Shown: positions 8,975 to 61,261 of the stretch, one piece after another
Layout of the letters: every line of letters starts with the position of its first letter
How positions within the stretch are numbered: position 1 is the first letter of the stretch
Source: Gautieria morchelliformis
Taxonomy: Eukaryota; Basidiomycota; Agaricomycetes; Gomphales; Gomphaceae
Direction of reading: 5' to 3'
Assembly: GCA_015179125.1 (NCBI GenBank)
Contig: WHVA01000520.1
Span: 1 to 64,000, forward strand
DNA: 64,000 nucleotides
Program-made: the position numbers and the translations under genes
The notes under the pieces: model-generated
What the model was told of the DNA's origin: nothing
Seen by the model: the letters and a program-made list of their open reading frames with translations, nothing else
The model's database searches: none

Positions 8975-10459
8975 ATGGTTCGCCTACTGCTTGAGCAGGA
9001 AGCGGACATCGACGCAGTGGAAGGGGACCACGGCACTCCACTCCAGGCGGCGGCGTGGCGTGGCGACACGGATATCGTTCGGCTGCTGCTCGAGCAGGGC
9101 GCGGACATCGACGCTGTGGGAGGCAGACACGGCAGTGCGCTCCAGGCGGCGTCGTCGCGAGGTCACACGGAGACCGTTAGGCTGCTGCTCGAGCACGGAG
9201 CTGAGATCAACGCAGCGGGATGGAAATACGACACTGCACTCCAGGCGGCGGCGTCGAGTGGCAACAAGGAGCTCGTCCGGCTGTTGCTTGACCAGGGAGC
9301 CGACGTCAACGCAGAAGGAGGGGCACACGGCACTGCGCTCCAGGCAGCGGCGTGGCGTGGCGACACCGACATCGTTCGGCTGCTGCTGGAGCAAGAGGCG
9401 GACGTCAACGCAGTGGAAGGGAGACACGGCACTGCTCTCCGCACAGCGGCGTCGGGTGGCAACACGGAGATGGTGCTGCTGCTGCTTGAGCAGGGAGCTG
9501 ATATCAACGTAGCGGGAAGGAGATACGGCACTGCTCTCCAGGCAGCGGCGTCGGGTGGCCGCACGGAGATCCTTTGGCTGCTGATAGAGCATAAAGCAGA
9601 CGTCAACGTAGTAGGAGGAGAGTATGGCACGGTACTTCAGGCGGCGGCGTGGGGTGGTGACGCGGAGATGGTTCGGCTGCTGATAGAACATGGTGCAGAT
9701 GTGGATGCAGTTGGAGGAGCATATGGCACTGCACTCCAGGCAGCGGCATCGAGAGGCGACACGGCGATAGTTCGGCTGCTGATAGAGCATGGAGCAGACG
9801 CAAATGCAGTGGGAGGAGCATATGGCACTGCACTCCCGGCGGCGGCATCCAGAGGACACACTGAGATAATTCGGCTGCTGATAGAGCATGGATCCGATGT
9901 GAATGCAGTAGGAGGAGAATATGACACTGCACTCCAGGTGGCAGCATGGTGTGGGGACATGGAAATCGTTTGGCTGCTCCTTGAGCAGAAGGCAGACATC
10001 AACGCAGTGGGGGGGAGATATGGTACTGTGCTCCAGGCGGCGGCATCGAGTGGCAACATGGAGATGGTTCAGCTGCTGCTTGAGCAGGGAGCTGACATCA
10101 ATGCAGTGGGAGGGGAACATGGCACTGCACTCCAGGCAGCTGGGTCTAGTGGCGCCACAGAAATGGTTCGGCTGCTGCTTGAGCATGGAGCAGACACCAA
10201 TGCAGTGGGAGGAATATATGGCACTGCACTCCAGGTGGTGGCATCAAGTGGCCACATGGACATTGTTCAGCTGCTGCTTAAGCATGGAGCTGATATCAAT
10301 GCAGTAGGAGGGGAATTTGGCACTGCTCTCCAGGCGGCGGCTTCGAGTGGCCACATGGATATCGTTCAGCTCCTGCAGGAGATGGGGTCCACTGCAGACT
10401 TGCACGATGAAGGCTTTGTGGAATGCATTACAGGCAACCAGGAGGCCTCACAAAGATGA
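8975..10459 (+). CDS. Ankyrin-repeat protein (ankyrin array only)
   Basis: A single open frame of 494 residues is made almost wholly of about 14 ankyrin repeats of 33 residues, each with the fungal pattern GADVNAVGG-x-YGTALQAAAS-GHTEIVRLLLE. Ankyrin arrays bind other proteins; in fungal NLRs they are the presumed sensing end. The ATG used lies inside a repeat (MVRLLLEQ), so the true start may be upstream or lost. The preceding 130 bp still looks like ankyrin coding but is broken by a stop. Unlike its relatives at 20698 and 29080, this copy shows no N-terminal helical domain and no NACHT domain. The last repeat is followed by a short non-repeat tail ending in QEASQR. It may be a truncated NLR remnant or a free-standing ankyrin protein. 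Confidence 0.7.
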   Translation: MVRLLLEQEADIDAVEGDHGTPLQAAAWRGDTDIVRLLLEQGADIDAVGGRHGSALQAASSRGHTETVRLLLEHGAEINAAGWKYDTALQAAASSGNKELVRLLLDQGADVNAEGGAHGTALQAAAWRGDTDIVRLLLEQEADVNAVEGRHGTALRTAASGGNTEMVLLLLEQGADINVAGRRYGTALQAAASGGRTEILWLLIEHKADVNVVGGEYGTVLQAAAWGGDAEMVRLLIEHGADVDAVGGAYGTALQAAASRGDTAIVRLLIEHGADANAVGGAYGTALPAAASRGHTEIIRLLIEHGSDVNAVGGEYDTALQVAAWCGDMEIVWLLLEQKADINAVGGRYGTVLQAAASSGNMEMVQLLLEQGADINAVGGEHGTALQAAGSSGATEMVRLLLEHGADTNAVGGIYGTALQVVASSGHMDIVQLLLKHGADINAVGGEFGTALQAAASSGHMDIVQLLQEMGSTADLHDEGFVECITGNQEASQR

Positions 10460-20376: not shown

Positions 20377-20697
20377 TGATATAGTGTATATTAAAAGTTG
20401 ATAGAAAAAATAAGAAGACATGTTCTTGTCAGCAGAGCCATCACTCAGGACGGACAAAAGTAGAATTATTTATATCCCAAAAATAAAATTGCCATATACT
20501 TTCGCCCTCTTCTTTTCTATAATCTGAGAATACATTGGGTGAAGCTACATGTAATAAAAAGTTTCAACCACCTGCCCTCATGTTGCATATCCACAGTGAC
20601 TACCTTCCCCAGGAACAGTTCTATGATATTCCACTCAACTGCTCCATTTTGCCGCCAGTAGCATGGCGCCATAGGAGCTTGGAGGTGTAGGTCTTCT

Positions 20698-22682
20698 CAG
20701 CTGAAAAATCTCTGCATGACCTTTGGATGCCGCAACCTGTAGTGACTGCCATGTTCCCCACCCACCATGTTACCATCTGCTCCATGCTCAAGCAGTAAGC
20801 GCACGATATCCACGTGACCTTGGGATGCCGCAGCCTGTAGTGGACTGCCATGTTGCCCACCCATTGTAACATCTGCTCCCTGCTCAAGCAGCAGTTGGAC
20901 GGTCTCCAAGCGGCCTTTGAATGCTGCAGCCTGTAGTGCAGTGCCATAAAACCCTCCCTGTATATTCACAGCTGCTCCCTGCTCAAGCAGCAGTTGAACC
21001 AACTCCGTGCCACCTCGCAATGCTGCAGCCTGTAGTGCAGTGCCATAAGGCCCTCCCTGTATGTTCACATCTGCCCACTGCTCAAGCAGCAGCCGCATGA
21101 TCTCCGCATGACTTTGGGATGCTGCAACCTGTAGTGGACTACCACGTCCTCCACAGACTGTGTTAACATCTGCACCCTTCTTGAGCAGCAATTGAACTAT
21201 CTCCAACTTGCCTGCGAACACTGCAGCATGCAGTGCAGTACCATATTCCCCCCCCAATGCATTCACATATGCTCTCTGCTCAAGGAGCCATTGAACAATC
21301 TCAAACTCGCCTGCAAGCACCGCAGCCTGTAGTGCACTACCATACATCCCCCCAACTGTGTTCACATCTGCGCCCGCATCCAGCAGCAGTCGAACACTCT
21401 CAGACTTGCTTGCAAACGCCGCAGCTTGTAGTGCCGTACCATACGCCCCTCCCACTGTGTTCAATTCTACTCCCTTCTCACATAGCAGACGAATAATCTC
21501 ACTGTGCCCTCTGAATGCCGCCACCTGCAATGTAGTGCCACAAAATCTTCCCTGTATGTTCCCATCTGCTCCATGCTCAAGCAGCAGTTGAACAATTTCT
21601 GCATGACCTAGCGACACTGCAGCTTGTAGTGCAGTGCCATGTTGCCTGCCCACTGCATTGACATCTGCTTCCTGGTCGAGAAGCAGTCGAACAACTCCCA
21701 AGTGTCCTCGCGAAACAGCCATCTGTAGGACACTGCCATGACTTTCCCTCACTGCATCCACGTCCGCTCCCTGCTGAAGGAGTAGTCGAACAATCGCCGT
21801 GTGGCCTTTTGTCGCCGCAGCCTGCAATGCACTGCCAGACCACTCTTCCTGGATGTTCACATCCGCTCCACGTTCAAGCAATAGTCGAACGATCTCCAGG
21901 TGACCTCCCAATGACGCTGCTCGCAATGCACTTGTATACTGGCCTCCCACTGCGTTCGGATCTGCTCCATGTTCCAGCAGCAGTCGAACCAGGCGGGTGT
22001 GACCTTCTGATGAGGCTTCTTGTAGTAGGCTCCCCCCTGCCGCGTTTGGATCTTCTCCATTTTGCTTCTTTCGGGCATTCGTATGGCTTGATCGGTGGTC
22101 AGGAGCTGAAAGCCATGCCACATCAGTTTGTACCTCCACAGTAACTCCCCTGCCGAGACTATCAGCATTGGTCGAAAACCTATTAAGCGGGACGCACAGA
22201 TGATCGGTGTTCAAGGTGGAGCTCAACAGTTGCTGGAAATTTCTCAGATACTCTAGTGTCTTCTTGACATCACCCTCCTTCAGCGACCAGATCGACGCTT
22301 GTAAGTGATTTAAGCTTCCATGGCTTTTGAATTTCTCTCTGAGATTTTCCAGCTCGGCGTGATAACGAGGAAGGCCTTTGGGGGACTTGAGAAACTTGGT
22401 CAAAGTCGGCAATTCCACAGACGCATCCGAAGCATTCTCCACGGCCTCACGGACACCATTCAGCACTTGTTGAAGAATCTGTAGTTGACCAATTATTCTT
22501 TTTCGGTTTGTCAAGGAGTTCCCGACACTATCTCCGTATCCATATAATGTGGTGACGGTGGCCGCGGTGAGCTGGATAACGGTGACCACGCTCACTGAAA
22601 GGTTTAATTAGCTGTTATTATCCTGAGTATTATATATCATCGACATGCCTGCCGTTGAACTGACTGCCAAAGGATCCGCCAT
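20698..22682 (-). CDS. NLR-like ankyrin protein: N-terminal helical domain plus ankyrins, no NACHT
   Basis: Exon 1 is 22682-22649 (MADPLAVSSTA). It joins exon 2 at 22594 across a 54-bp intron that begins GC and ends AG. The protein is about 640 residues. Residues 1 to about 150 form the helical N-domain typical of Agaricomycete NACHT proteins: VIQLTAATVTTLYGYG, NRKRIIGQLQILQQVL, HLQASIWSLKEGDVKKTLEYL. About 13 ankyrin repeats of 33 residues follow (ALQAAxxGHxEIVRLLLEQGADVN). The NACHT ATPase that lies between these parts in the gene at 29080 is absent. Near 20755 the frame slips by one, so the last repeat reads out of frame and the frame ends early (QRFFS). The alternative frame continues as ankyrin to WSS-stop near 20639. 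It could be a NACHT-less regulator or a deletion derivative. Confidence 0.7.
22595..22648 (-). other. GC-AG intron 1 of the ankyrin gene
   Basis: On the minus strand the donor is GCATGT and the acceptor TTTCAG. The join gives STA-V-SVVTVIQLTAA. The NLR at 29080 has a GC donor (GCAAGT) at the matching codon and phase, which supports this join. Confidence 0.6.
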
Positions 22683-27859: not shown

Positions 27860-28185
27860 CCTTGTGCCAATTTAGTGGAATTCATATTGAACTTTGAGTG
27901 GAGTATGAACATATATATTTTAGTGGATAACCCTTTATATATAACTAGGAACCTCTATGTCCCAGATATGGGAGAATCCACCGGCATGCCGGTGGAGAAA
28001 CAATTGACAGCATGTTGGGATGCTCCTCTTGATATGCATATGGATATAAAATCCACGAAAAAAACGGCTTTGCTGTGAGTGGATAGTCCATGTACTGTGA
28101 GTGGTTAGGGGACAATGAGGGATTTTTGGTGGACGGTCCACCATCGGACCGGTGGAGTGTCCGTTGGTGGACCATCCACCAAAAA
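27860..28185. repeat. Right subterminal TCCACC/GGTGGA repeat block
   Basis: About eleven copies of the motif. They include the palindrome CCACCGGCATGCCGGTGG (near 27975) and a long hairpin with 21-base arms at 28123-28143 and 28165-28185 that differ at one position. Confidence 0.75.
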
Positions 28186-28218
28186 CCGGGTATGGACGTC
28201 CCACTGATTTATCAGGGG

Positions 28219-29079: not shown

Positions 29080-29104
29080 ATGGCTGTAGCTCTTGGATTA
29101 ACAG

Positions 29105-29164
29105 GCAAGTAGCCGACGACTTATCAGAACCCGCTGGTAGCGCAGTGCTAACCACCCCAATCAG
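29105..29164 (+). other. GC-AG intron 1 of the NLR gene
   Basis: Donor GCAAGT, acceptor AATCAG. The join gives MAVALGLT-G-SVIAVLRL and keeps the N-domain frame. The position and phase match intron 1 of the paralog at 20698. Confidence 0.65.
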
Positions 29165-32100
29165 GAAGTGTCATTGCCGTTCTCCGGCTCACTGCAGAGA
29201 CTATCAGTACTTGCTACAGCTATGGAATTGCAGTCAAGAACGTATCGAGAGACAAGAAAAGGCTCATTGATCAACTGTTTGGACTGCAAAAAGTGCTTGA
29301 AACGGTTCGTCGACTAGTGGAAGATGACGAGACTGTAGCTGCCTCCCGATTGCCCGCTTTGAATGAGCTGCTTCTTCGTTGCTCTGGCGATCTGCAGACT
29401 CTCAATGCGAGCCTGGAAAGGGACCTTGGACGCAAAGGCCGCATTCAGGCGTTGATCTGGCCCCTAAAGGAGAGCGAGGTCAACAAGACTCTTGACAAGC
29501 TAGGAAAGTTCCAGGACTTGTTGACTACGGCCATGGACGTAGATCAGACGTATGTCACCTCTGTTACTTTCGAACCGACGCTGATCTTCATGGCAGACGC
29601 GTGACCCTGGAGATACACATTGGTGTTGAAGCCTTGCGGGAACAAAGTGCTGAAATCAGTCAGTCGATTGAGCTGGCGGAATCGCGCATCACTGGTGCCA
29701 CACAGGACATAAAAACCGATGTCCAATCCTTACAGAGACAGAACGCCCAGATGAGCCAGGCTATGGAACAGGCCAAATTGCGTATGTCTATGTCGCCAGT
29801 GCCTCCTAAGGTGGGTGGGACACTAATTCTCACGGATTCATTATGTAGAAGAACTTCGTCAGAAGATCTATAATTGGTTGGCGGCGCCTGATCACGAGTC
29901 AAAGCATAGGAATGCCTGTAGCGTGCGACAGGAGACGACCGGTTCGTGGTTTGTGGAAGGAGATCACTTTCAAGAGTGGCGGGAGACCCCTCATTCCTTC
30001 CTTTGGCTCCACGGTATACGTGCGTCAGCTAATCTGTGCTATTTGTGCTCTCCCCTGATAGACCGCCACAGCTGGTGCTCGGAAAACGATCTTATGGTAT
30101 GAACATTATATTCACCATGATCCCCATCCGACCATGCTAACAAATGGACATGTCAAGCTCAACCATCATTGAAGAACTTTTACGCCACTGCAGGTCCGAC
30201 GCCTCCCTGGCAGTGGCATTTTTCTACTTAGATTTTAACAACAAGGACACCCCGACAGATGCCGTGCTTCGATCTCTGATTGAGCAATTATCTGTACAAT
30301 GCGCGACCATCCCCAATGCCCTGGAGACACTAGTATCTAAGCATGCTGGTGCAGGCCGATCTGCGGCTCAGGAGGAGCTGATGGCAACCTTGAAGTCGAT
30401 CATTGGGAGCTTCCGGGCGGTATACATTGTGTTTGATGCGCTTGATGAATTCCCGGAACGGTCTAGGTTTCTGAAATTAATCAGAGAAATCCACCAGTGG
30501 GAGTTTGACAAATTACACTTGCTGGCAACGAGTCGGAAAGAGCGAGACATTGAAGAAACGCTGAATGCCTTGACTTCGCATGAGGTACCCATGGACGAGA
30601 GTCTTGTCGACGGTGACATCCGAGTTCATGTGTCCAGAACACTCGAAGATGATTTCAGTACGTGCTCCGCAGAGGAGAAAGAGATGATGAAAATCACCTT
30701 AATTAGGGGTGCGCGTGGAATGTGTGTGTTTGTTTCCTCATGCAGAAATATTACTGACAGAAAGGGAAGGTTTCGATGGGTCGTGTGTCAGCTGGAATCA
30801 TTACGGAAGTGTCGAACTCCTGCTGCGCTAGAAAAAGCACTCATGTGTCTCCCAACCACGCTATACGAGACGTACGATCGAATTCTCGCAACAATTGAAG
30901 AGGACGACAGGCGGGATGCTGTGCGCTTGCTGCAATGGCTCGCTTTCTCAGCCGAAAAAATATTGTCAGAAGAGGCCGTAGATGTGATTGCTACTGATCC
31001 TGACGCAAAAAGTGGACCTCTCTTTGACCAATGCCGGCGGCTTCGGGATCCACGAGACATTCTGACCATATGCTCGAGTCTAGTCGCCATTACCATGCCT
31101 GTCGCCAAGTCACAGGCTGGAGAAAGACGCCCCGCTCAGTACAACAACTCTGAGGACGGCAACTATAATGACAGCTTTGACCACGATAGATCACGCCTCA
31201 GTGGGTCAGGAGAGGTTAGATTAGCTCATTTCTCCGTCCGCGAATATCTGATTTCAGAACGCCTTCGCACAGGCCATGCCACCCTGTCTTATTTTTATTT
31301 CAACGAAAAGATGGCAGATGTATTCATCGCGAGGACATGCCTGTCCTACCTGCTCCAGTTTGACCGGCACGGGGTCGTGGACTTAAATACGCCCAGTTCC
31401 TTTCCACTATGCCGCTATGCCACAGTGAACTGGATGCTTCATGCTGCGGCGGATCCGGCTGGTGACTCAGATGATCTACAGAAACTGATCATAGCCCTCC
31501 TGGAACCCACGAATGCTATGTACATAAACTGGCTGGTGCTATGGGACCGAGAACGGCCGAGAATTACTCCTCTTCATAGTGCAGCTGCGGTTGGGCTGCA
31601 AACAGCATGCCAAAGTTTGTTGAAGAATGGGTTGGAAGTTAACGCACCGGACGGGTTTTATGCTGGTACTCCACTGCAGTGGGCGGCGCATAATGGTTGC
31701 GATATAACTGTTCAGCTGCTCACAGAGAAGGGAGCGGAAGTGAACGCTCAAGGAGGGGAGCATGGCAGCGCACTGCTGGAAGCGGCGTTGGCGGGTCACT
31801 ATTCGACTGTTCAATTGCTCCTAGAAAAGGGAGCAAATGTGAATGCCCAAGGCCGACATTATGGCAATGCACTGCAGGTGGCGGCGTTTAGGGGTCGTGA
31901 TATGATCGTTCAGCTGCTCTTGGAGAAGGGGGCGGATGTAAATGCACAAGGAAAGTCATGGAGTGCGCTGCAGGCGGCAGCGTTAGAGGGCCACCATACG
32001 ACTGTTCAGCTCCTCCTGGAGAAGGGAGCGGACGTAAATGCACAAGGAAAGTCATGGAGTGCGCTGCAGGCGGCGGCGTTAGGGGGCTACTATAAGACAG

Positions 32101-32406
32101 TTCAGCTGCTCCTAGAGAAGGGAGCGGATGTAAATGCTCGTGGAGGAATTCAGGGGAGTGCACTCCAGGCGGCGGCCTTTACGGGTGATGAAGCGGTTGT
32201 TCAGTTGCTCCTAGAGAACGGAGCGGATGTAAATGCTGAAGGCGGGCTTAATGGATGTGCGCTGCAGGGGGCGGCGTCATATGGCCAGCTCCTCCTCCAA
32301 GAGAAAGGAGAGGCTGTGAATGCTCGTGAAGGACTCTATGGGCGTACAGTACAGGCGGCGGCGTTTGCTGGCCACCATACAATTGTTCAGCTTCTCCTAG
32401 AGAAGG

Positions 32407-33260
32407 GAGCAGATGTAAATGCTGAAGGAGTGGTTTATGGTAGTGTGCTGCAGGCAGCGGCGTTTGCGGGCCAATATACGACTGTTCAGCTCCTCCTAGA
32501 GAAAGGAGCAGCTGTGAATGCTTGCGGAGGAGTGTGTGGGAGTGCGCTGCAGGCGGCGGCATCAGAGGGCCACTACACGACTGTTCAGCTTCTTCTAGAG
32601 AAGGGAGCGGATGTAAATGCCCACAGAGAAGATTGTGGGAGTGCACTGCAAGCGGCGGCCTTTAGGGGTGATGAGGCGGTTATTCAGTTACTCCTAGAGA
32701 ACGGAGCGGATGTAAATGCTGAAGGAGGGCGTTATGGGAGTGCGCTGCAGGCGGCGACGTTACAGGGCCACTATACGACTGTTCAGCTCCTCCTAGAGAA
32801 AGGAGAGGCCGTGAATGCTCATGGAGGACTCTATGGGAGTGCAATGCAGGCGGCGGCGTTTGATGGCCACCATACAATTGTTCAGCTTCTCTAGAGAAGG
32901 GAGCAGATGTAAATGCTGAAGGTGGGGTTTATGGGAGTGTGCTGCAGGCAGCGGCGTCTGCGGGCCACTATACGACTGTTCGGCTTCTCCTAGAGAAAGG
33001 AGCAGCTGTGAATGCTTGCGGAGGAGTGTGTGGGAGTGCGCTGCAGGCGGCGGCGGCAGAGGGCCACTATATCACTGTTCAGCTTCTCCTAGAAAACGGA
33101 GCGGATGTAAATGCGCGTAGAGGAGATTGTGGGAGTGCACTACAAGCGGCAGCCTTAACGGGTGACGAGACGGTTATTCAGTTGCTCCTAGAGAATGGCG
33201 CGGAGGTGAATGCTCAAGGCGGATATTATGGAAATGCGCTGCAGGCCGCGACATTCAAGG
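32407..33260 (+). repeat. Higher-order ankyrin duplication (five-repeat, 495-bp unit)
   Basis: The block 32407-32772 recurs at 32905-33260 with high identity. The shared word CTTGCGGAGGAGTGTGTGGG begins at 32521 and again at 33015, 494 bases apart. That equals five 99-bp ankyrin units minus the one base lost at about 32888. Confidence 0.75.
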
Positions 33261-33482
33261 GTAGGTCAATGCGCAAGGTGGAGTGTATGGCGGTGCCCTT
33301 CAGGCAGCATTGGTAGCTGGTCACGATGCGATTGCTTCGATGCTCCTGCAGACGGCTGCGGCGGTCCCTGACGAGAAACCAGAGCTGAAGTCGGTGCGTT
33401 GCGCTGTCTTACTGTCAGCATATCCCCATCTTTCCACCTCCCCATGCCCTCTATCGCGCACCTTACTCATTCCTTACACCAG

Positions 33483-35333
33483 GGCTCAGGGTGGATCGCG
33501 ACCTTCAGCAAGGATATCCCCACGCGCCGAGTAGATGTGAATTTGGCGCATGCACTGGTTCACTCTGAGTAAGTATTGGTCAGTCGCGTCGCTGTTGGTT
33601 TGGTTGTCTTGGATTTGGGCGGGGCTATGGAGATTAGGCTTCACTAGTCACTTTGACTCGTTCGTAGTCCCGTACTAATCCCGCCCCTTACAGCAACATA
33701 TATTGTGTCCGCTTCTCAGCGGACGGGGAGAACCTCGCGAGTGGATGCCCCGGATTGGCACAGGTATATGACACGACCACAGGCGCAACGACTTGGTTAG
33801 TGATCACCCAATTTTTTCGCTTGGTCCAGCCCATTCACCCCTTTCCCTTGTTTCCTCTTCTCCCCCATTATGTAACTACCCTCGCACCAGTCTCCTCTAT
33901 CACAGCACATATGTCAACAGAGCTAGAGTCCCCATCATCAACGGCGCGTGCTTTAGCCCCGATGGGAGGCTTCTCGCGACGGCTGCGTCAAATATAATTA
34001 TGGTGCGTATTTTGTTATGTCCTTTGCTGAAAAGCTTCATTTACGTGACCCTGGCGTACATTTGATTCCGCTTTATCCCCGCATTGCGAGCTCATCCGTG
34101 CACTATGCTCCCCCTCTCCCACAGGTATGGGACATTGCGAACAAGCGCGTCCTCTATATCTTTCAGGGTCATCAACTAGACATCTGGTTCCTCGATTTTT
34201 CACCCGATGGCCGTCTCATCGTATCCAGTTCCGAGGACCAGACTGTGCGCATCTGGGACATGGAGACTGGTCAGCACAAGACCCTGTCATCCACAGTCGA
34301 TGTGCGTGTACTTGTCACTCATTATGGCGGAATACTGATGGAAGTGGTTGTGTTTATGGTTGGCTTCGATTGGCGGGTATTTTGCATCTTGTGTAGGTCG
34401 GCGCCGTCGCATCATCTGTCGCCATCTCCCCCGACGGGAGCCTCGTCGCCACGGGCTCCCCTGATTCCATCGTGCGCCTCTGGAACATTCACACCGGTCA
34501 GCTTGTCAACCGCCTCGTGGGGCACAATGATGCCGTTCTTAGCGTTGTGTTCACAAGTGACGGAAAGGGCCTCGTCAGCGGGAGCCGGGACGGGACGGTG
34601 AAGCATTGGGATTTGAGCCCGCTCTTAAGGAATGCGCAGAGTCGGGCGCCGTCAAGGCAGCCGTATGAAATGGGTGGAGAGGGCGCGGGCTCGGTGATAA
34701 ATGAGAAGGGTGAGCAGAACGAAGATGTGTGTGTATGTACGGTTGAGTTTATGGGACATGAGGTGCGTATCAGGTCACTTTACCTGTGTTTCTTTTCGGG
34801 ACTCGTAAATTCTCACTGGTCGCGGGCGTGGATGCTAATGAGCGTGGATTAGGACCCAGTGACCTCAGTCGCCGTGTCGCACGACAACCAGTGGATCGTG
34901 TCCGGCTCACGGTGGGACCGGTCCGTACGGTTCTGGGACCTGCACACGGGGGAAGCGCAACTTACGCTCCATGGACATACAGGTCTTGGTACGTCCCAGC
35001 GCGTTCGTATGCATGTGTGTGCGGGGCTCATATCTAATTGCACATTGTGTGCGTGCATTCCCGCACGCATAGTTGAGTCTATCGACCTAAGTCCAACGGG
35101 CGGTATGCTTGCTACCGGCGGCGGCCAGGGGGGTGGCGTGAAGTTATGTGCGTGCCTTTGACTCATTCATAACAGATCCTCATGCTGGCGCTGATGAATC
35201 CACTCGGCAGGGAACTACACAACGCTACAATGACAGCGCTGGAAACTGTATAACCTGGCACACTGACAGTGGATGTTTCTCTCCTCCCTCGCATTCGGCT
35301 TTGGTTTTGTCTCTTTTGTCTTTCCTGACGTGA
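33483..35333 (+). CDS. Tup1-like seven-blade WD40 domain, fused in frame to the NLR ankyrins
   Basis: Exons: 33483-33568, 33694-33795, 33891-34002, 34125-34301, 34397-34762, 34853-34988 and 35073-35147, then either a stop at 35161 or a last exon at 35176-35333. Seven WD units read in order: [95 protein letters not shown] and [15 protein letters not shown]. The lead-in [16 protein letters not shown] and the unit order match the C-terminal propeller of Tup1/TupA co-repressors (family recall). The Tup1 N-terminal tetramerisation domain is absent. No ATG precedes the first exon in frame. Instead the last ankyrin exon (ending 33393, phase 0) joins it across a clean 89-bp GT-AG intron. The terminal blade is incomplete. 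Confidence 0.75.
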
Positions 35334-37301: not shown

Positions 37302-39308
37302 CTACAACACTGCCCGCATGCCCACCGCTGTTACACATCCCAGCATTGTGCCCCAAAACGAACCCACGACGTTCCTGCGTCCGCCCGACGAATGCGTGCC
37401 GGCGCCGCTGTTGCTGCTCGACACCGTCGTCTCCGCCGCAGCCTGTGGGACTCCGCTGATAGTTGTGGCCATGGATGGGTTGCCCTGGGGCGCCGCTTCT
37501 GTTTTCACTGCACGACAAACGCCAGCACCAATGCGTATGATGAGGGGCTGCACAGACACATTAAAAAATGCCAATGTTGATTACGTACCGGGGAACGAGC
37601 CGCCGTTGGCTTGAGCGGCCGCGACCGCCGAAGAAAGCTGGTCGTTTGCGTTACTTGGCACGGTTGACATGAATCCGACTCGCGGAGGATCGGCCGACGG
37701 ATGGGTCAGATTTCCGTAATAAAATGATGCCAGATTACTATGGAGAAAAAAGGGTGAAAGTATTGTCACTGCAGGAGGGTCGAATGAATCGAGCTTACGA
37801 TTTAAGAAACGGATCACCGAGACTCCACGAGTATAAAAAGCCACTGTGCGGCGGGTCGGTCGCAACGACATTGGGTTGACAACTTTTCGCGTTTCCTCCT
37901 TGCGGCAGCATCAAGAAGTCCCGCGGGTCGATCGGAAACATCGCGCCCCCGATTTGGAAAGCCAGAGTATGCGGCACGGAGCAGTCGTATGTGGCCGTCG
38001 CCGAGCTGGAGCCGGTGACACTTGTTAAGAGCGCTTGCACGACGTCCTGCGGGCCGCGGATGAGCGAGTTCCCGGTATCGACGAGCGCGGTGACGGCGAC
38101 ATTGGGCGATAACGTAGAGTCTGGGAGCCGCTGTCCGTCAAGAAACACGCCATCAATGGGGACCTCCCATGCGATTGGGTAAGTGTCTGTGGGCGAGTTG
38201 ATGCCCCCTTGCGCGGGTGTGTAACCGCGAATAGGCACCCACGTGAGGGACTGGTTGGCGACGCCTTGCGGAAGCTCGCCGATAGAGAGCATACCGACAT
38301 TTCCACCAAACTGGACGGTGTCCCGCTGGAGAGTGACGGTGAACTGGGGAGCAGCCAGTGCACTCTGAGCGAGCCGTGAGACTAGGGGGCCGTTGGTCGC
38401 GAAGCTGTTGAGAAGGTCGTCAAGAGATGGCGAGGTAGTAGATTGGCGTTTGGATGTCTGATGAGAGGGAAGAAGGGAGGCTAGGTCGGGAAAACGGGTA
38501 CGTCTGAGATCAGGGGCGTATGGTATATCGCGTGACATAAGAAGCTTGTTGTGAGATCCACCGAGGAGAGACGGTAGGTCTGGGAACTTGGGGGTGTTTA
38601 AGTTCGAACGTTTTAAAGGCGGCTGCGAATCTGTGGGGAACTGCGATTTGAACAGTTGTGCCCATACTACACTACGGCAGGCATCAGCGACAGGATGGAA
38701 AAACGTGAAGCAGGGCCGAGCACCTGTTTACCGGGAATCCCATGCCTACAATCCCCGCTGAGCCTGTTTGAAGGACAGTGGTGTTGGTATCGTTGATGGC
38801 GGCGAAGAACTGGTTTCTAATAGAGAGACCTGCGACGCCAACAATGTCTCTGCCTACTTCCCCGAATGCATGCGTCCCCGTGGTAGAGTCGCCGTAGAAA
38901 AGACTTGCGTCTAGGCCGGCAGACTGGAAGCTCGCCTGGGGGTAAAGAGGGAGGCCATTGCATGCCGACTCTTTACATGCGTCGGATACGACCCAGAGAT
39001 CACTCGAGCCAGTGTCAAGCACGAGCGGTGTTTCTATTTGGCCCACATTGACCAAAACATTGTACGTACTAAAGAGCGGTGTGGTTCGAGCCTTGGAAAC
39101 ATACAGTGCATGCAGACACTCACATATCTTGGAAATCGCCGAGGCCGATGGACCCTGTTGCAGTTCCTGCCCTGCGGCGCAGTGGAGGCGTCTCCCGTTT
39201 ATATAGAGGCAGGTGCAAGCCATTCGTGGTCCGCTTTGTATGGCTGACCATCTCCAAGGCGAATGAGAGGTATGGGAGGAGGAGGATAAAGAGCGAGTGT
39301 GGCAGCAT
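37302..39308 (-). CDS. Secreted pepsin-like aspartic protease (family A1) with GPI-type tail
   Basis: Five exons: 39308-39124, 39068-38724, 38671-37799, 37737-37589 and 37498-37302, all GT-AG, giving 582 residues. The N-terminus is a signal peptide (MLPHSLFILLLPYLSFALEM). A short propeptide leads to GLGDFQDITYNVLVNVG. The first catalytic motif is VLDTGSSDLWV, the flap is YGDSTTGTHAFG, and the second catalytic motif is ALVDTGNSLIRGP. Both catalytic Asp residues are present, so the enzyme should cut proteins at acidic pH. An insert of about 75 residues (about 37995-38650 region) separates the lobes. The C-terminus has a Ser/Thr-rich stalk (ETTVSSSNSGAGTHSSGG) followed by a hydrophobic end (VVGSFWGTMLGCVTAVGM), as expected for a GPI-anchor signal of yapsin-like wall proteases. 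It stands alone, and the coding sequence looks intact. Confidence 0.85.
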
Positions 39309-41269
39309 GGTGAGTAACGAGAGGACGAGCGAGCCTGTCGCACAAACTTGGGTTGCTATTAAGGTATAGTAAAACGTCGAATACGCAGTGCTCGTCTTCC
39401 GTCGTTCACGGCAAGAAGCCTACGAAACCAAGAGTGTGAGGGTCAAGACCAATCCTACCGTGTTGAAGCCGTAGCACGGGGCGCTTAGTTCAAACTCTCC
39501 CAGCCACCTGTCTGTTGATGCTCTGATTTGCTCGCATGGTCTCATAGTCTAGACTACAAGCGTGTGAAGGTGTACTGTATCTTCTAAATGAAGAGTAGGC
39601 GTCAAAAGTTCATTATGCAAGGGATCGTCTTGACAGCTCTCTCAACTAGAGAACCGGCTCAGGCTCATGTCAACGATATCAGCGAAACGTTGCAGGTCAT
39701 CGCTGGCCACACCTCGGCACACAGCCGTGGCAGAGTGACCACCGACATGTCGAAAGATATAGTTCATGGCCGACGTTCGTTCAGGTTTGATTGATAAATG
39801 TCTTAGAAGTTGACTTATGTCAGGTCAGTCTGCCTCCATCAGCTTCCTGGGTTGAACATGTTTATTGTTAAACGTACGCTGATAGGCTCTTTAACCACTG
39901 GTCAACCCATCCCAGCCCTCGCCAGCAGCCGCCTGCGCAGTTCGCAGTTGTTGGCGAAGTTGACATATTATTAGACGAGGTAGCTGAGATGAGCAGAGTG
40001 TCTACTATCTCGTTTGATTCAGAGGCCCGCAGTCCCGCTCAAGACCTGCTTCACTACGAGTGTAAGAAGAAGTCAGCCTAGATGACATGATGCAGTATCA
40101 AGGCTGGTTCTTGTTCCTACACCAATGTTATTATTGGCACGATTCCAGTGCGCTCACCCGTGCATTTTCGAATAGCCGAAATACCACACTAAGATCCATA
40201 GATGGGACCCATAGAACCACTGTCTATGTGCCCAGCCTGCCGCAGGGGAGATTAGACCGTCAATCCCATTCCTCCATACGACACTCAGAGGCGGGTGACC
40301 AGGTGACCACAGACTTTGCACGGAGGCCAGAATCAATCATGACATTATCTTGGAGACCCGGTACACTGCCAACGGTACTCAAGGACATTAGAGACAGGGT
40401 ACACCAAACATGCACGGACATATAAAGTATCGGAAACTGGGGGGAATTATTGTAATATTCGTGCAGCGTGCCACGCGGCTGGCACTCCACTTCGCCGAAA
40501 CTACGTGCGGAGAGGCCGTGGCTAGGAGAACTGGAGAAGAGTCAGGCATCTACTTCATATGACATGCGTTGTCCATGGTCGCCACCTCCGAGTATATTCT
40601 CGAGTCTTAATCCTTCATGTTTGGGATGAGTATCTAAAACATCTCCGACAATAGTCTTCACTGGAATCGCGGCTAGCCTCTTGGCTCTATAACCTTCGCA
40701 TGATCCGTGACTAACCAATACTGCGCACGGCTTTTGAGGTACATACGGATGAGACAGTATGGGCCATGCGGCTGTCTCGCGTATGTCATATGCAGAGTCG
40801 ATTCGAATCCAAAATCTAAGTCCCTCATCATGCTTCCTTATTTCTTTTCTTTCGTCTATCCCGACCCCCATTAGCCATAGCTAAACTCTGCTTTTGTCGA
40901 ACCAGCCACTCGCCACGGCGAAGTAACACATGAACCCATCGTCTGAGATGGCGCAGGCATATATGGTCGTTGATGAGAAGAAAGGAGAAATCAGCACGGC
41001 ACAAGCGACCAGTGAGTCCTTCATTTTCTTACCCGACGATGCAACAGGCGAAATGCATCAAAGCACTACATTGAAATGTGCGTTGACCGAGGATGAGAAC
41101 GCGCAATCGCTACTAGGTACAAAACGACGAAGTCCATCGAATTACACCAGGATAAATCCATGCACCCGCGTGGACACATTCAGGATGACGTCGACATCGA
41201 TACTCGATATCTTAATAATGAGAGGATATTAAAGATGTGGATCGCGCAGCTAAAGGAAGGAATCAATCG
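39309..41269. other. Stretch without a recognised gene
   Basis: Short frames on both strands (for example 40542-40871 minus and 40930-41232 plus) have no recognised family and no consistent splice chain. The right part may belong to the relic that follows. Confidence 0.35.
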
Positions 41270-45441: not shown

Positions 45442-47129
45442 ATGGCTGCCGTCGTACGTCCTGGTCGTTTCCGTGTGAGGAGCAATTGTCTTGCTGCTGC
45501 TGATGGAAATATCGCAAGGTCATTGATAATGGCTCAGGGATATGCAAGGCTGGCTGTGAGGACGTTTCCCGTTGAGTCTGACAAGATTGCTGACAGGTCG
45601 GTGTCTAGTTGCAGGTAATGCCATGAACATGTCAGGCCTGTAGTGCCATGCAATAATAATGGGGCAAACAGGTGACGATGCGCCTCAAGCTGTATTCCCG
45701 TGAGTTGGGAAGGTCTTGATGCGGATTGATTTATGTATAATATGTGAATAGTTCCATTGTCGGTCGTCCACGCCAGCAGGGCGTGATGGTAGGCATGACA
45801 AACACATATATTGGGTATGTTATAATCGCACCCCATTCCTATGATGTTCTCAGCCACCAGAATTCCAGTGACGCCGCACAGTTGAAGCGCCATATCCTTA
45901 CACTCAAATATCCCATCGAACACGGTCTCGTGGTCAACTGGGGTGATATGGAAAAGATATGGCATCACACATTCCATAACGAGCTTCACGTCGCACCAGA
46001 AGAGCGTCCTGTTCTCATGACTGAGGCCCCGCTCACCCCCACCACTGATCGTGAAAAGATGACCCAGATCATGTTTGAGACGTTCAACACCCCCGCATTC
46101 TACGTCGGCAGTCAAGCCGCGTTGTCTTTGTACGCATCTGGACGCACGACGGGTATTGTGGTCGATTCTGGTGATGATGCCACGCATATTGTGCCTATCT
46201 ACCAGGGTTCCACTCTACCGCATGCCATTCTTAGGCTTGATTTTGGTGGGCGTGATATTACCGGCTATGTCCTCAGTATTGTCCAGGAGCGCCATCAGTT
46301 TCTCACCAGGGCAGAGAGGGAAATAGGAAAGGATATCAAAGAGAATCTCTGCTACGTGGCGCTAGACTTTGAGCAAGAGATGCAGACCGCGACACAGAGC
46401 TCCCAGCTTGAGAAGAGCTTCGAGCTTCCAGATGGCCGGTCCATCACCATTGGAAACGAACGGTGAGATGTCCGTGTGGCTGACATGATGACCCACTCAC
46501 TTGTCGGGTCCATAGTTTCCGTGCTCCGGAGGCATTGTTTCAGCCCTCCTTCCTTGGCCTTGACGCACCAGGTATCCATGAGACCACGTAAGTATTCGTC
46601 TTCATTAATTTGCATCCTGGTTCACCTACTATCACAGCTACAACTCCATTCTCAAGTGCGATGGAGACATTCGTCGTGGCCTGTACGGCAACGTCGTGCT
46701 CTCCGGAGGCACGACCATGTACCCGTGTTTCGCTGACCGAATGCAAAAGGAACTCACCACATTAAGCCCGAGCAGCACAAAGGCGAGCTGAAGCTGGTTT
46801 CCAATTCCCCGTGATTGTTGACTTGGTATTACAGGTCGATATCGTCGCTCCGCCGGAACGTAACTACTCTGCCTGGCTTGGAGGGTCTATCCTAGGTACG
46901 ATATTCCTGAGTGCTGTGTCTGCTTCATCTGACTTTCGTCTTCAGCTTCTCTCAGCACGTTCAAAACCTTGTGGTGCTCCAAGCAGGAATACGACGAGTC
47001 GGGTCCGGGGATTGTTCATCGCAGTACGTCTCCTGATTTTCGTTGCCTGATATCTGATTTCGCTGATCCTCGACCCGTCCGGAAATTTTTCTAGTAGGAG
47101 GACATGTCTGGGATGTTTCTCGGACATAA
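45442..47129 (+). CDS. Divergent actin paralog, ten exons
   Basis: Exons: 45442-45453, 45519-45555, 45672-45699, 45752-45814, 45869-46462, 46516-46587, 46638-46782, 46835-46895, 46946-47023 and 47095-47129. These join to 374 residues against 375 in standard actin. Clear actin motifs are [90 protein letters not shown] and [15 protein letters not shown]. Odd points: FAGDDAPR is shortened to CDDAPQ; the DNase-I-binding loop (VGMGQKDSYVGD in usual actin) is shortened to [10 protein letters not shown]; and the invariant KCF end is replaced by [11 protein letters not shown] in this model. One intron (46783-46834) has a GC donor. The reading frame is open throughout, so the gene may be used. A specialised actin-like protein or an early pseudogene are both possible. 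Confidence 0.8.
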
Positions 47130-49795: not shown

Positions 49796-49920
49796 AATGC
49801 ATCGGTAAGGTCAAATGCATCAGTAAATTCACAGGCATTGAGACAATAAAAACTTGCATCAAGAAAAAGTATACTAAGTAAATACTAAGTAAATTGTATC
49901 AGGGGAGTGAATGTTACAGT

Positions 49921-51854
49921 TCAAGGAGCTCTAAGCAATACATCTTCATATACAATATTTCTGGTTTGCACACCCTCCTCAAGCAAGACCTTAACCCTGT
50001 TCCAGTTGGTCCCCCTTGATACACCAACATACAATTGACCATGTCCAAACACTGGATATCTCAGGTCCAGCCCAACCGTACCCAAAGACTGTCCCTGAGA
50101 CTTGTTGATAGTCATTGCAAATGCCAAACGCACTGGAAACTGCCTCCTTTGCAGCACAAATGGCAATTCTCCCTCTGATGGCTTAATGATGATCCTGGGG
50201 ATGAAAGCAATATTTCCTGCACATGGACCTGAGATGATCCTGACCTCCAACACTCTAATGTTCATCCTCACCAACCACAGCCTTGTCCCATTGCATAGTC
50301 CTTGCCTCTGATCCAAATTGCGCAACAGCATCAGAGGCACTCCAGGCTTGACTTCCAAGCGAGCAGGAGGAAGACTGCCCATCTCTATGGAATTCAGATA
50401 CTCTGCAGGATACCTATCTGCATCATCGGATTCTGTAATGGAATTTACACAGTGCAAGACCTGAGCATCACCTGGAAACTCCCTAAACACCATGGAATTG
50501 ATCTCATTGACCTCAGTGTTTCTGGCACAGAGGATGGCCCGCTCCAAAAAGTAATCATCCCGGGCAGGGACTGGATTGCCAATGCCAGGGTATATTTCCT
50601 GGATCAGATCTTCAATTCCAGGGCCACAAACCATGTGTTGAGGGAGTGAGAGGGTATGATCCAGTGGGAGATCCTTTCCCTGGCCCACATTCTGCAGCCA
50701 TTCTGCAAATCTGGCTCTGTCAGGGTCATTTCTCACCCGCATGTTCTCTGTCAGATGGAGGACCTTGATCTTTGGCCACAGATATGACTTCTGAAGGGTA
50801 GCTCCCACGATATCCTCCTTGGAGCCTTTAGGGACAATTGGGAGAGTCTGCTGAAAGTCACCTCCAAAGGCGACTGTGATGCCACCAAAGGGTCAGTCAG
50901 GCTGGTCAAGGAAATCCCTCAGTGTCCTGTCAATGGCCTCTATGGCATGGCGATGCTGCATTGCAGCCTCATCCCAGATGAGGAGACTGGCCTTTCTCAG
51001 CATGTCAGCCTTGTCAGAGTTCTTTGTGATGGAGGAGAGAGAGCGCTCATGGACAGGAATGGGAATTCCAAGCATGCTATGAGAGGTTGTACCCTTAGTG
51101 AGGATAAGTGCAGCCATTGCAGATAAGGCTACTGCAATCACAATGAGGCTCTCCGCTCTACAGGAGTGGATTAGAGTGTTCCACATGAACGATTTCCCTG
51201 CACCACCTGAGCCAGTGACGAAAAACATTTGTCCGTCAGGTTTGCTCCGAGCATCTTTGGTCAGTGCCGACTGTAATATCTGATCATGCGCAGACCTTTG
51301 CCCCTCATTCAGCTTGGGAACCTCCTCATCAGCCATCTGCCTCTCTTGAACAGGGTCATAGTCCCTCTGCTCAGCTATGAACCTGTTTCCAATCAGGACC
51401 TCCCACTCGCCTACCACCCGAGGCATATCATCAAAGCTGCTCAAGGACATTCCACCCTGCTGGAGGATTTTATCCAAGAGAAAGAGGCCGAAATCATAAA
51501 CCTGATCATCCTGTGGATCATGCATACGGTGTCTGATTTGGAGCTGATGTCTGAGATCATCACATATGTGCTCCTTGAAGCCGTCCCATAGTCTGCCAGG
51601 CTGCGATGGATTGCAATGGCCAAGGATGGTGGCAAAGAGATGTCTGAGCTGAGCACCTGTTTTCATGGCACTGGCTTCCTGGAGACACAACCTCAGCTCC
51701 TGATCATCATCCAGAAGTCCCCTTGCACAACAGGCCTCCTTGTAAGTAGCATATTGTATGCCATCCACTGACCTAAGCTCCTCAAAGGATCTAGCCCCCT
51801 TGACCACTGTGAGGAGAGTGCGCACAAAAAATCTCTCTCCTGATTTAGGGCTGC
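49921..51854 (-). pseudogene. Helitron 1 PIF1-type helicase part, one nonsense codon
   Basis: This frame continues the RepHel protein one base back from the Rep frame: RTLLTVVKGARSFEELRSVDG, KEACCARGLLDDDQELRLCL, then Walker A GSGGAGKS (about 51216-51190), LLIWDEAAMQHRHAIEAIDR (Walker B region), TENMRVRNDPDRARFAEWL, AMTINKSQGQSLGTVGLDLR and YVGVSRGTNWNRVKVLL near the end. A TGA at 50892-50890 follows DQPD. Helitron 2 has AGA (Arg) at this place, so it is a single A-to-T change. The helicase would unwind DNA during transposition; without read-through this copy is cut before the motifs that follow. Confidence 0.8.
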
Positions 51855-54800
51855 AAAGTGAAGGCGACCGATGCTATAACCTCCTTGGCATGGTGTCCAT
51901 ACCTTTTCCTCTGATTGCCAGGTAAACTGCTCAGGAAACTCCACATAGAGCAGATCACGTGCTTCAGGGTACATATCATTGGCCTCAAAGTAAGCCATGA
52001 GTGGTGTCTTTTTTGCCTCAGCCCTAATGAGGATGTTGTCCACATCCTCATTGGGATCAAAGATGATCGTGTGGTGGTCCTTTTCATGGACTGGCAGTGC
52101 CATGACTGCAGGAACCTGGGTGTGGATTTCCCGCTCCAGAAACCTCCAACAGGCCTCATGAGCACTGACATAGCGAGCGTCCAGGTACTGCTTAATTTCA
52201 TCCTTGCTGAGACCCAACTCCATTGTGGTCTGATCATGGCCCTTGTAGAGATACTTGTGGATATACTTGATACACCTCACATTGATGGTGAGTTCAGCAT
52301 TGATGTGACATAGGAGTTTGAGCAAGAGCAGAGCAGAGTATGGAACAACCCATCTGTTGTCCAGCACGTTGCCCCTGACATTGTGCTGCCTTCCATCATT
52401 GCGACGACGATATTTTGGATATCCATCCTCATTCAGACTGGTTTCCTCACAGAAGGGCTTTGGGAAGTTTTTCTTGCACTTGCCATTTTCCATGCAGGGT
52501 GCGTCTCGATTCATTTCTCCACAGGGACCATGTGTCATCAGGTCACATACCAAGCGGTAGAGGATGGGATGAGTCTCTGGATCAGGGAACTCTGCTGAAA
52601 TCATAGAATCCACCTCATGTGGATGCCTGATCTTGGAATCTCTTGCAAACCAGATAAGAATATGCATGTGTGGGAGTCCCCTTTTCTGGAATTCAATGGT
52701 GTGGATGTGAGCAATGGTTTCCCCAAAAATCTTTTCCTTGACGATCAAGTCAATAAGGTATTTCTTTTTGAGATGGAACACCCGTGACACCAAGTCAGGT
52801 CTGTCCTGAGGTGATTGTCCAGGTAACAATGCATCCAATATCTCCTGCCAGTTGGGATTGGCAGTCATTGTAATAAAGAGATCGGCCACACCAAACTTCC
52901 TTGAAATGGCCAGAGAGTTCTGCAGGTTTTGCTGCATGTCCCGTGTCCCTCCTTGAAATGTGGCAGGCAGAATGGATTTTGTGCCCAAGCTGTTTGCATC
53001 TCTGTCATTGTCATTGCGATTAAACGCATCCACCATCTGGTTATACATCTCAGCATGCAGAATGTGTTGATTTGTCCTGATCCACCTCAGCCTGCTTTGC
53101 TCCGCAGTGGCCCAACAGTCTAAAATGTACTGCTGGAATAACTTGCCAGCATGCAGGAGTGTTGTAGGTTCATCCCTCCTCTGGAAGAGACGAAATGAAT
53201 GGTACTGAATTTGGGTGACCTGCCCCCGTCTGTTTGGGTTGGCCTCTCGAGCACGCTCTGGGTCACGATAAGGAATACCTGGTTTCCATCCCAACTCTGC
53301 CCTGGGAAAGAGCAAGACATAGTGAAGAGAGGCATAGTTTGGATTCATATCGGATACCCTTTTGAAAGGTCCACCTTTGAGCTGGACAATAATATCCCTA
53401 GGTTCAGGGTCGATGCCATCTCCAGGAAGAACCACTGCAATCTCATCTGCAGTAGGGATATTATACCTCCTAGGATCCCTGTGTTCCCTGTATGTGAGCC
53501 TCGCCTGGATCTCACCATTCTGTCCCTGATCTCTGAGCCTCTCAGCTGCTTGTTTATATATGGCGACACGAGGATTGCAGACCAGGAGCATTTCCTGCAA
53601 GTCTCCCATGACAGTTGGAGACAGACCTGGGTTACGTGTCTTCCTCTTTGCCAACGCCAATGCTGGATCATATATGTAAAGCTGGGCATACGTTATATCC
53701 GGTTCATGGTCTTGGAGGAGAGAGCCATGAAGATGATACAGTTCACCCTGTAGCTTGAGGACATATGGACCACGACCTGCCCGAAGCAAATCTTTATCAA
53801 AGTTGGCCCCCAAGGAAGTGAATGCAAACGCAGCATTATACTGCCTGATATTCTGGCGAAACTCTTTTGCCTCAGGGTCTTGGCCTTCTAAGAGCCGTCT
53901 CAAAGGCTGAGGGGGCACTGGCAGCTTTGGAAGCTGCACCTTTCCTTTTATACAGCAATCACCAAAACTGTCCTCCGCATTTGTAGAGCTTTGCAGACGC
54001 TCTGCAAACCAGTGCAATGCTCCACATTTAGGACAGGCCACTTCCATGGGACCCAGATCATGAGGCTGCACATCTGCCTCAATTATTTGAGAGCGACCTA
54101 GTGGAATAGGAGGAGGTCGCTGAGCACCACGCCGAGGTCGCTGAGGACGTTGCTGAGGTATGGGGAGTGGAGGAGGCAGCTGAGGAGCAGGGAGTGGCTG
54201 AGGAGGTGCAGGGAGTGGCTGAGGATTGGGAGGTGGTGGTGGATGAGGTGGTACCAATGGAGGTCTGAGAATTGCATCTTCCTCTTGCCTGATTGCATTA
54301 GCCTGGGCCTGCAATGCTGCCACTCCTGCAGAACCCACAACAGGAGGATTAGCCCCCCGTCTATGTCTATCCAATTGCTGCAATATAGCAGCCTGCTGAT
54401 CCGCCTGAGCACGCAAGTCTGCAATAAATGCAGAACCTACTACAGGTGCTGGCTGTACAGGGTCTGGCTGATTTCCTCTCAAAGGCTGTAACCGAGGGAG
54501 AGCTGCTCTCTGAGCAAGGAGGGCTGCCACCTGCACTCTGGGACTGGGATCAGGAGGATGTGATGGCCCAGCAACAGGTTGTTGACGTGATGATGGTGCA
54601 AGTGTGGGAGGGCATGATGGCCCAGCAACAGGTTGTTGACGTGATGATGGTGCAAGTGTGAGAGGGCGTGACAGCCCAGCAACAGGTTGTTGACGTGACG
54701 ATGGTGCAAGCATAGGAGGGCGTGATGGCCCAGCAACAGGCTGTTGACGTGACGATGGTGCAAGTGGGGGAGGGAGTGATGGCCCTGCAACAGGTTGTTG

Positions 54801-55211
54801 ATGTGACGATGGTGCAAGCATGGGAGGTCGTGATGGCCCAGCAACAGGCTGTTGACGTGACGATGGTGCAAGAATGGGAGGGCATGATGACCCAGCAACA
54901 GGTTGTTGATGTGATGATGGTGCAAGCACGGGAGGGTGTGGTGGCTGTTGACGTGAGGATGGTGCAAGTGTGGGAGGGCGTGGCGGCCCAGCAACAGATT
55001 GTTGAAAAGGATCGGCAACATTGCTTCCAGGAGGAGGGTGAGGGAGAGGGATGGCAAAAGGTGGGGGTGGAGGGGTTGACTGGTCCCGAGCTCTGATACG
55101 CGCTCTCCGATCAGTGAGTGGAGTCATTCGCTGCTGCGCCTCCCTCGCCTGTGCACGCTCCCGCTGACGGTTACTCTCTGGAGTAGATGGATCCCTGAGA
55201 AATGCAGGCAT
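51850..55211 (-). CDS. Helitron 1 Rep part: repeat-rich N-terminus, zinc motif, HuH endonuclease
   Basis: The frame starts at 55211 (MPAFLRDPSTPESNRQRERA) and carries about 1,120 useful residues. The first third is Pro/Gln-rich and holds about nine copies of an 18-residue unit (QQPVAGPSRPPMLAPSSR type, 54-bp DNA repeat at about 54550-55000). A Cys pair with CCIKGK (about 53945-54035) is the zinc motif seen before Rep. The Helitron_like_N/Rep domain has the HuH motif in GLPHMHILIWF (HMHIL at 52670-52656) and the two-tyrosine motif YIHKYLYKGHD (about 52265-52233), which cut and join DNA ends during rolling-circle transposition. The frame leaves the Rep consensus near 51855, where a -1 shift is needed to continue into the helicase. 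Confidence 0.85.
54550..55000 (-). repeat. 54-bp coding minisatellite in Helitron 1 Rep
   Basis: About nine 54-bp units containing CAGCAACAGGTTGTTGACGT on the plus strand encode 18-residue Pro/Ser/Gln repeats. Helitron 2 has shorter, different Pro/Leu repeats in the same region. Confidence 0.8.
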
Positions 55212-61100: not shown

Positions 61101-61261
61101 GGGGGTGGATGGTTCCGAGCTCTGGCAGCAGCCACAGCAAGGGCACGCGCTCTCCGATCAGTAGGCGACGTCATACGACCCTCCTGCTCCTCCCTCGCCC
61201 TTTCACGCTCCTGCTGACGATTTCTCTCTGGAGTAGAAGGATCCCTGAGAAATGCAGGCAT
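58154..61261 (-). pseudogene. Helitron 2 Rep part, one internal frameshift
   Basis: The frame starts at 61261 with the same MPAFLRDPSTPE start as Helitron 1. It shows Pro-rich repeats (LPAPPQPLPAPPQP) and the zinc-like motif (CPDCGALHWRAERLQ, GDCCMEGK). A frameshift near 60090 moves it into the frame that runs 60153-58154. That frame has the HuH motif in GLPHMHLLTWF (about 58980-58965), GPCGQMNPNAPCMENGKCKK and the tyrosine motif YIHKYLYKGHD (about 58575-58540). Apart from the shift near 60090 the Rep domain looks whole. The consensus leaves this frame at 58159-58153, the same place as in Helitron 1. Confidence 0.8.

Follow-up and report, generated by a model that had tools for sequence, protein, structure and literature searches.

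A stretch of 64,000 nucleotides from the basidiomycete Gautieria morchelliformis (assembly GCA_015179125.1, contig WHVA01000520.1, positions 1 to 64,000; the window in what follows) carries a plus-strand gene that spans 29080-35233. Its predicted product consists of an N-terminal helical domain, a NACHT (NPHP3_N) NTPase and a long ankyrin array, the parts of a NOD-like receptor (NLR), followed by a Tup1-type WD40 propeller of seven blades. Pfam analysis of the window product returned Ank_2 (9.3e-95), WD40 (7.3e-60, seven WD40 stretches) and PF24883 (4.5e-20). The gene was modelled as follows.

29080-29104 and 29165-29549, plus strand: exons 1 and 2, N-terminal domain, with a GC-AG intron between them and a weak PF17111 (HeLo-like) match
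29597-29781 and 29849 to about 30019, plus strand: linker exons leading to FLWLHGI
30062-30096 (ends uncertain), plus strand: P-loop exon, reading GARKT
30158-31628, plus strand: NACHT (NPHP3_N) and the part following it
31561-32894, plus strand: ankyrin array, main frame
32864-33316, plus strand: open frame holding the ankyrin array past the first frame break
33265-33393, plus strand: last ankyrin piece and tail (..VPDEKPELKS) past the second frame break, ending in phase 0
33394-33482, plus strand: junction intron, phase 0, GTGCGT..CAG, at the site of a Tup1 intron and containing the in-frame ATG 33444
33483-33568, plus strand: Tup1 lead-in exon, starting in phase 0
33694-33795, plus strand: WD40 exon 2
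33891-34002, plus strand: WD40 exon 3
34125-34301, plus strand: WD40 exon 4
34397-34762, plus strand: WD40 exon 5, with an insert preceding blade 6
34853-34988, plus strand: WD40 exon 6
35073-35147, plus strand: WD40 exon 7
35211-35233, plus strand: last exon (..W NYTTLQ), with the stop TGA ending at 35233

At the P-loop exon the aligner needed a frame jump, which we interpret as a wrongly placed intron boundary. The paralogs described below have, near GM/FRW, a stop or frame change that we interpret as an intron; the window copy reads through this place. Upstream of the gene, self-complementary words such as GGTGGAC and GTCCACC were seen by eye at 28120-28195.

A splice that joins the last ankyrin exon in frame to a Tup1-like propeller had been proposed from the letters of the window (the sequence-only reading), and the joint was found as described: the exon to 33393 ends in phase 0 at the donor GTGCGT, and after the acceptor CAG the exon from 33483 begins in phase 0 with a Tup1-type lead-in. 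The seven WD40 units were likewise recovered, across eight exons, up to the TGA ending at 35233. A PDB search with the window propeller matched yeast Tup1 (1ERJ) in two stretches, at row 8, outranked by other WD40 proteins; the label 'Tup1-like' is used because of the lead-in, the insert, the introns and the genome's own Tup1, and not because of the PDB ranking.

Family members were searched for in one genome, of 122 Mb in 1113 contigs. A search with the propeller gave 22 further matches clear of generic WD40 matches, two of which are Tup1 copies. Twenty loci were fetched, with the Tup1 copies at L046 and L047. At 17 of the others (L029-L045), an N-terminus, NACHT, ankyrins and the Tup1 propeller follow in order on one strand, and at L048 ankyrins and propeller are present, with no NACHT match within the stretch examined. 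L048 (C394) also has two long introns, of 1192 and 1019 bp, at normal intron places, which suggests insertions inside introns.

Three short exon queries, for the ankyrin tail, the lead-in and the blade-6 exon, were also run against the genome; 35 of 150 tail matches (at least 41.7 bits), 40 of 150 blade matches (at least 51.8 bits) and all 40 lead-in matches, weak ones included, were used. A lead-in lies 137-221 bp downstream of 30 of the 35 ankyrin tails on the same strand, measured from listed start to listed start, whereas about 0.002 such pairs within 400 bp on the same strand would be expected by chance. The blade-6 exon was found downstream of 30 of these tails and a NACHT match upstream of 29. 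Seen from the other end, a family tail or exon follows 29 of the 75 NACHT loci merged from 96 NACHT-side query matches, among the matches listed. Because some loci with equal scores (C15/C1023/C882, C599/C713 and C458/C636) may represent haplotypes of a single locus, the number of distinct genes is at most about thirty. The family also includes L020 (C458), whose ankyrin frame is open, and L040, as spliced here, gave PF24883 (1.4e-40) and PF05729 (4.2e-7) and a P-loop reading GAGKS. The sequence-only reading had put forward an NLR fused in frame to the half of Tup1 that binds targets, with the tetramerisation domain left out, and a real gene family has this architecture.

In all 19 aligned copies (the window, L029-L045 and L048), the joint is a phase-0 GT-AG intron of 57-89 bp. 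The stretch from tail to propeller is without a frame break or stop in 15 of the 19, with breaks in L032, L033, L038 and L043; L041 has an unalignable stretch in blade 2, so 14 copies are clean from tail to propeller. The ankyrin frame is open from the NACHT end to the joint in 12 of 18 copies (not in the window, L033, L038, L042, L043 or L044), and ten copies have both a clean propeller and an open ankyrin frame (L029, L030, L031, L034, L035, L036, L037, L039, L040 and L045). The NACHT part contains a stop in L035 and a frame break in L045; frame jumps at two fixed NACHT-side places in nearly all copies are presumably mis-modelled introns and not damage. Eight paralogs look intact (L029, L030, L031, L034, L036, L037, L039 and L040), with their NACHT introns roughly modelled.

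The window copy is probably a decaying member of this family. The ankyrin frameshifts first noticed in the window are present, the array leaving its frame near 32894 and again near 33265, and the P-loop has lost the G before K that all 17 modelled paralogs keep (GAGKT, GAGKS or GTGKT). From these changes we think it likely that this copy, taken alone, is a pseudogene, although its WD40 exons and joint are without breaks and an assembly error at the repeats could create false frame breaks.

Comparison with the genome's own Tup1 supported the assignment of the WD40 part: the lead-in and the intron positions and phases are common to both, and the joint lies at a Tup1 intron. The genome's Tup1 is at L046, with Tup_N upstream, and its propeller and preceding residues align with yeast Tup1 (1ERJ). 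The exon before its propeller ends SELKKE and is followed by an intron beginning GTGCGT and then, in phase 0, by GSDWCAVFSK. The NLR tail exons mostly end in PELKL or the like at the same GTGCGT intron, and the yeast counterpart in 1ERJ reads pdalkkq. All eight introns are at the columns (within 4) and in the phases of Tup1 (L046 and L047) in 15 of the 19 copies; L036, L041, L043 and L044 were modelled with departing introns at one or more places, and the Tup1 intron at column 182 is missing from the family models. Family propellers are 50-63% identical to L046 and align blade by blade with Tup1. From the common joint intron and the common propeller introns, we conclude that the 3' part of TUP1, from just before the joint intron onwards, was most likely copied as DNA and became attached to an NLR gene.

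Tup_N serves in tetramerisation and Ssn6 binding. A genome search for this domain gave three matches, two at C419 and one at C1048, none belonging to the window gene. For the match at C1048:120344-120451, no propeller match was seen on C1048 among the matches listed. About 6 kb downstream of TUP1 lies L047 (C419:37900-47400), a second Tup1-like copy whose propeller starts at 5802 when the locus is reversed. This propeller is 90% identical to that of TUP1, and no Tup_N match accompanies it, which makes L047 a bare 3' copy; its place beside TUP1 means that such 3' copies do arise. A tree placed both Tup1 copies in one group with the window, L029, L030, L031 and L042 (97/97). The outgroup of this tree was unusable, its five generic WD40 rows each having fewer than half of the columns filled and apparently being wrong-strand reads.

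The propeller is under constraint in the family. Its omega, the ratio of nonsynonymous to synonymous change, was below 1 in 171 of 171 pairs among the 19 copies, with a median of 0.41, and was 0.19 for the two Tup1 copies. Pair tests were made on six separate pairs chosen out of the 171, for which the propeller ratio of nonsynonymous to synonymous differences per site (pN/pS) was 0.52 (Fisher 1e-23); the closest pair alone was not significant (0.13). Given this constraint and the retention of the joint in all 19 copies, the idea that duplication trapped a Tup1 copy, the other origin that the sequence-only reading had allowed for, finds no support as the source of the architecture, even if the window copy itself looks decayed.

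The propeller is a part of Tup1 that is touched by DNA-binding repressors. Seven top-face residues of Tup11 matter for Fep1 binding as measured by isothermal titration calorimetry (PMC3419727; this and the other PMC articles are cited for portions of their text), and codons 7, 9, 25 and 27 are under positive selection in the NWD family of Podospora anserina (PMC1805685). Top-face registers -6, -4 and +12 of the blades were set and later checked in print; the NWD codons correspond to registers -6, -4, +12 and +14 in our own mapping by spacing. Across the family, registers -6, -4 and +12 rank 1, 2 and 3 of 30 in entropy, with 2.38 bits against 0.96, which was not reached in 100000 permutations, and the mean entropy of the four registers was not reached in 20000 random blade rotations. 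In the break-free subset of 13 of the 19 copies (without the window, L032, L033, L038, L041 and L043), the four registers rank 3, 1, 4 and 9 of 28, and without the window's subgroup of five copies they rank 1, 3, 4 and 10.

Identity to Tup1 is 15% (76/508) at the 28 top-face positions and 68% (2113/3093) at the other blade positions. Between the two Tup1 copies, 25/28 top-face and 157/166 other blade positions are the same, and the 19 family copies have 19 distinct top faces. At the 21 three-register sites, omega was 1.41, compared with 0.43 elsewhere (Fisher 0.006, based on the synonymous sites of the whole propeller), and reached 3.4 and 1.6 in the two closest pairs. These comparisons make it clear that the top face was rebuilt and has escaped the constraint seen in Tup1, and selection likely drove the change.

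In the logic of NLRs, a recognition module restrains NACHT, a ligand releases it, and oligomerisation brings the N-termini together. We propose, with a probability of about 60%, that the family consists of NLRs in which a captured Tup1 propeller serves as a diversified sensor, and not as a gene-control output. A 3' segment of TUP1, comprising the end of the pre-propeller exon, the phase-0 intron and the propeller exons, would have been copied as DNA behind a NACHT-ankyrin NLR gene, arriving without the tetramerisation domain, and further copying would have spread the fused gene to up to about 30 loci. Its product would have, in order, an N-terminal helical domain (tentatively HeLo-like), a NACHT switch, the ankyrin array and the Tup1 propeller. 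The propeller would have kept its blades and swapped the partner-binding top face of Tup1 for residues that differ in every aligned copy, so providing a second diversified recognition surface beside the ankyrins. Ankyrin array and remade propeller together would hold NACHT off until a ligand on the propeller, or on the ankyrins, frees it, and NACHT oligomers would then gather the N-terminal domains. Architecture, common joint, common introns, constraint and top-face divergence can be read directly from the genes, and from these and the general logic above we infer the ligand and the switch.

The N-terminus matches PF17111 weakly, at 19.5 bits against a Pfam cut-off of 27.2. An AlphaFold2 model of N-terminal exon 2 has four helices, with a mean predicted local distance difference test score of 63, and a fold search with this model gave nothing that reached E 0.001. 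The executioner domain of MLKL appeared in that search at row 27 with E 2.6, which is not evidence for such a domain. PMC9815663 terms PF17111 HeLo-like, and PMC12258605 lists HeLo-like domains as pore formers; cell death would be the output of the predicted HeLo-like N-terminus.

Among the competing explanations of the propeller, relaxed constraint survives best, although we consider it unlikely. The propeller would then be a structural cap, its fold kept and its unused face drifting near the neutral rate. By some measures the face does have an omega near 1, with a pN/pS of 0.94 when the few synonymous sites of the same codons serve as base and a value of 1.14 for four registers; against this stand the 1.41 obtained with whole-propeller synonymous sites and the high values in the two closest pairs.

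Several points weigh against the diversified sensor that we favour. Relaxed constraint is compatible with the top-face omega: the three-register value has a bootstrap interval of 0.99-1.93 and is below 1 in two of the six pairs (0.98 and 0.77), and the interval of the four-register value is 0.79-1.61 (Fisher 0.16). The list of the 40 most variable columns had been seen before the registers were set, blade 6, in which most copies are one residue shorter than the window, has an uncertain register, and register +14 alone ranks 8 of 28 in entropy. The evidence comes from one genome, the window copy is itself broken, and splicing in vivo is deduced from genomic sequence. The tree does not settle a single origin, or a separate clade, for the NLR propellers, and the HeLo-like label, sub-threshold in Pfam and without a significant fold match, is tentative.

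The sequence-only reading had offered a decoy or direct gene control as the role of the propeller, and both suggestions are weakened by the replacement of the residues with which Tup1 binds its partners; because of the 15% top-face identity, gene control and a decoy faithful at the top face are both set back. As an integrated decoy, the propeller would imitate the cell's own Tup1 to bait a Tup1-attacking protein of a parasite or virus, with tampering as the trigger of the NLR. The captured domain does derive from a general regulator, and an attack on the sides or bottom of the propeller would still fit, but a bait would be expected to preserve the surface through which Tup1 is recognised, and we regard this explanation as rather doubtful, a little more so than relaxed constraint.

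It is improbable that the locus instead holds two adjoining genes, one NACHT-ankyrin and one truncated Tup1-like, copied as a block and left unspliced. The statement that the WD40 part has no start codon of its own proved incorrect for the window, where ATG 33444 lies in the WD40 frame with no stop between it and the WD40 exon; this ATG, and one in L041, could start the WD40 part. Such an open in-frame ATG before the lead-in was found in three copies (the window, L041 and L038) and is absent from the other 16 of 19, and the ankyrin frame of L038 crosses the 84-bp joint intron even when unspliced. Past the donor, the ankyrin frame meets its first stop after 2 to 58 codons, at a position that the 19 copies do not share. 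One spliced gene fits better than two neighbours, because GT, AG and phase are kept at every joint, the ATG is rare and the stop sites are scattered. Least probable of all is direct gene control, by which the NLR would take the propeller to repressor-bound promoters and silence or release genes there: Tup11 binds Fep1 through its propeller (PMC3419727), but the partner-binding positions are replaced, differently in all 19 aligned copies, and Tup_N is absent from the fused gene.

The diversified sensor proposed here can be compared with known systems. In surveys of fungal NLRs, C-termini are classed as ankyrin, WD40 and TPR (PMC4986451, PMC12258605), with HEAT as well in PMC12258605; the latter survey, from 2025, reports non-canonical domains as well and puts forward a CHK-2-like kinase as a decoy. 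A Tup1 propeller in an NLR was not found among the open PubMed Central papers searched, as judged by listings and abstract openings. The HNWD/NWD proteins of P. anserina (het-d, het-e) are likewise NACHT NLRs with a C-terminal WD40 propeller, and they vary at the same kind of positions, codons 7, 9, 25 and 27 there (PMC1805685) and registers -6, -4 and +12 here, by our own mapping. Their WD40 units exchange by concerted evolution, whereas in the present family a long ankyrin array is followed by a single propeller of seven blades that derives from Tup1 and is interrupted by introns. The CHK-2-like kinase NLRs of Sordariales (PMC12258605) resemble it in that the domain of a regulator was captured at the C-terminus of a NACHT NLR family; there it is a kinase, in nine genes and still near its source, and here it is a propeller whose binding face has been replaced, present at up to about 30 loci.

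With the Tup1/Tup11 co-repressors, the family has in common the propeller sequence, the lead-in and the intron positions and phases, and it differs from them in lacking Tup_N and the column-182 intron, in the NLR in front and in its top face. Plain NACHT-ankyrin NLRs of the same genome are similar on the NACHT side, with query matches of 46-74% identity over pieces. Among the exon-wise matches listed, 46 of the 75 NACHT loci have no Tup1-WD40 or family tail behind them, a count in which fused ones may be missed.

Other features were noted in the window. At 20697-22607 on the minus strand, an open frame that starts, by eye, like an NLR N-terminal domain goes straight into ankyrin repeats; Pfam found ankyrin-type families in it, one weak other match and no NACHT. 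A further ankyrin array lies at 8918-10459 on the plus strand, with 513 open amino acids and 12 Ank stretches. Downstream of the NLR gene and on the opposite strand, an aspartyl protease gene occupies 37795-39355 (minus strand; PF00026 in the frame 37795-38727), and an actin-family frame of 241 amino acids (PF00022) follows at 45741-46466 on the plus strand. From about 49900 to 61300 on the minus strand, Helitron-type frames form what look like two tandem elements, and two of these frames matched Helitron_like_N and PIF1 in Pfam.

The integrated domains of fungal NLRs have received little study, and the present family bears on the question of how new recognition surfaces arise. For this family, the source protein, the breakpoint region, the joint intron, the amplification and the change of face are all readable in one genome, and the step from propeller to receptor can therefore be examined copy by copy. 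Tentatively, and at not quite even odds, we suggest that an NLR lineage captured the propeller of a general co-repressor, set it after the ankyrins, amplified the gene to as many as about thirty copies and re-evolved the face of the propeller under diversifying selection, yielding a non-self receptor from Tup1 that would have reached, by a different route, much the same variable positions as the NWD allorecognition receptors. The WD40-type C-termini of NLRs may have independent origins.

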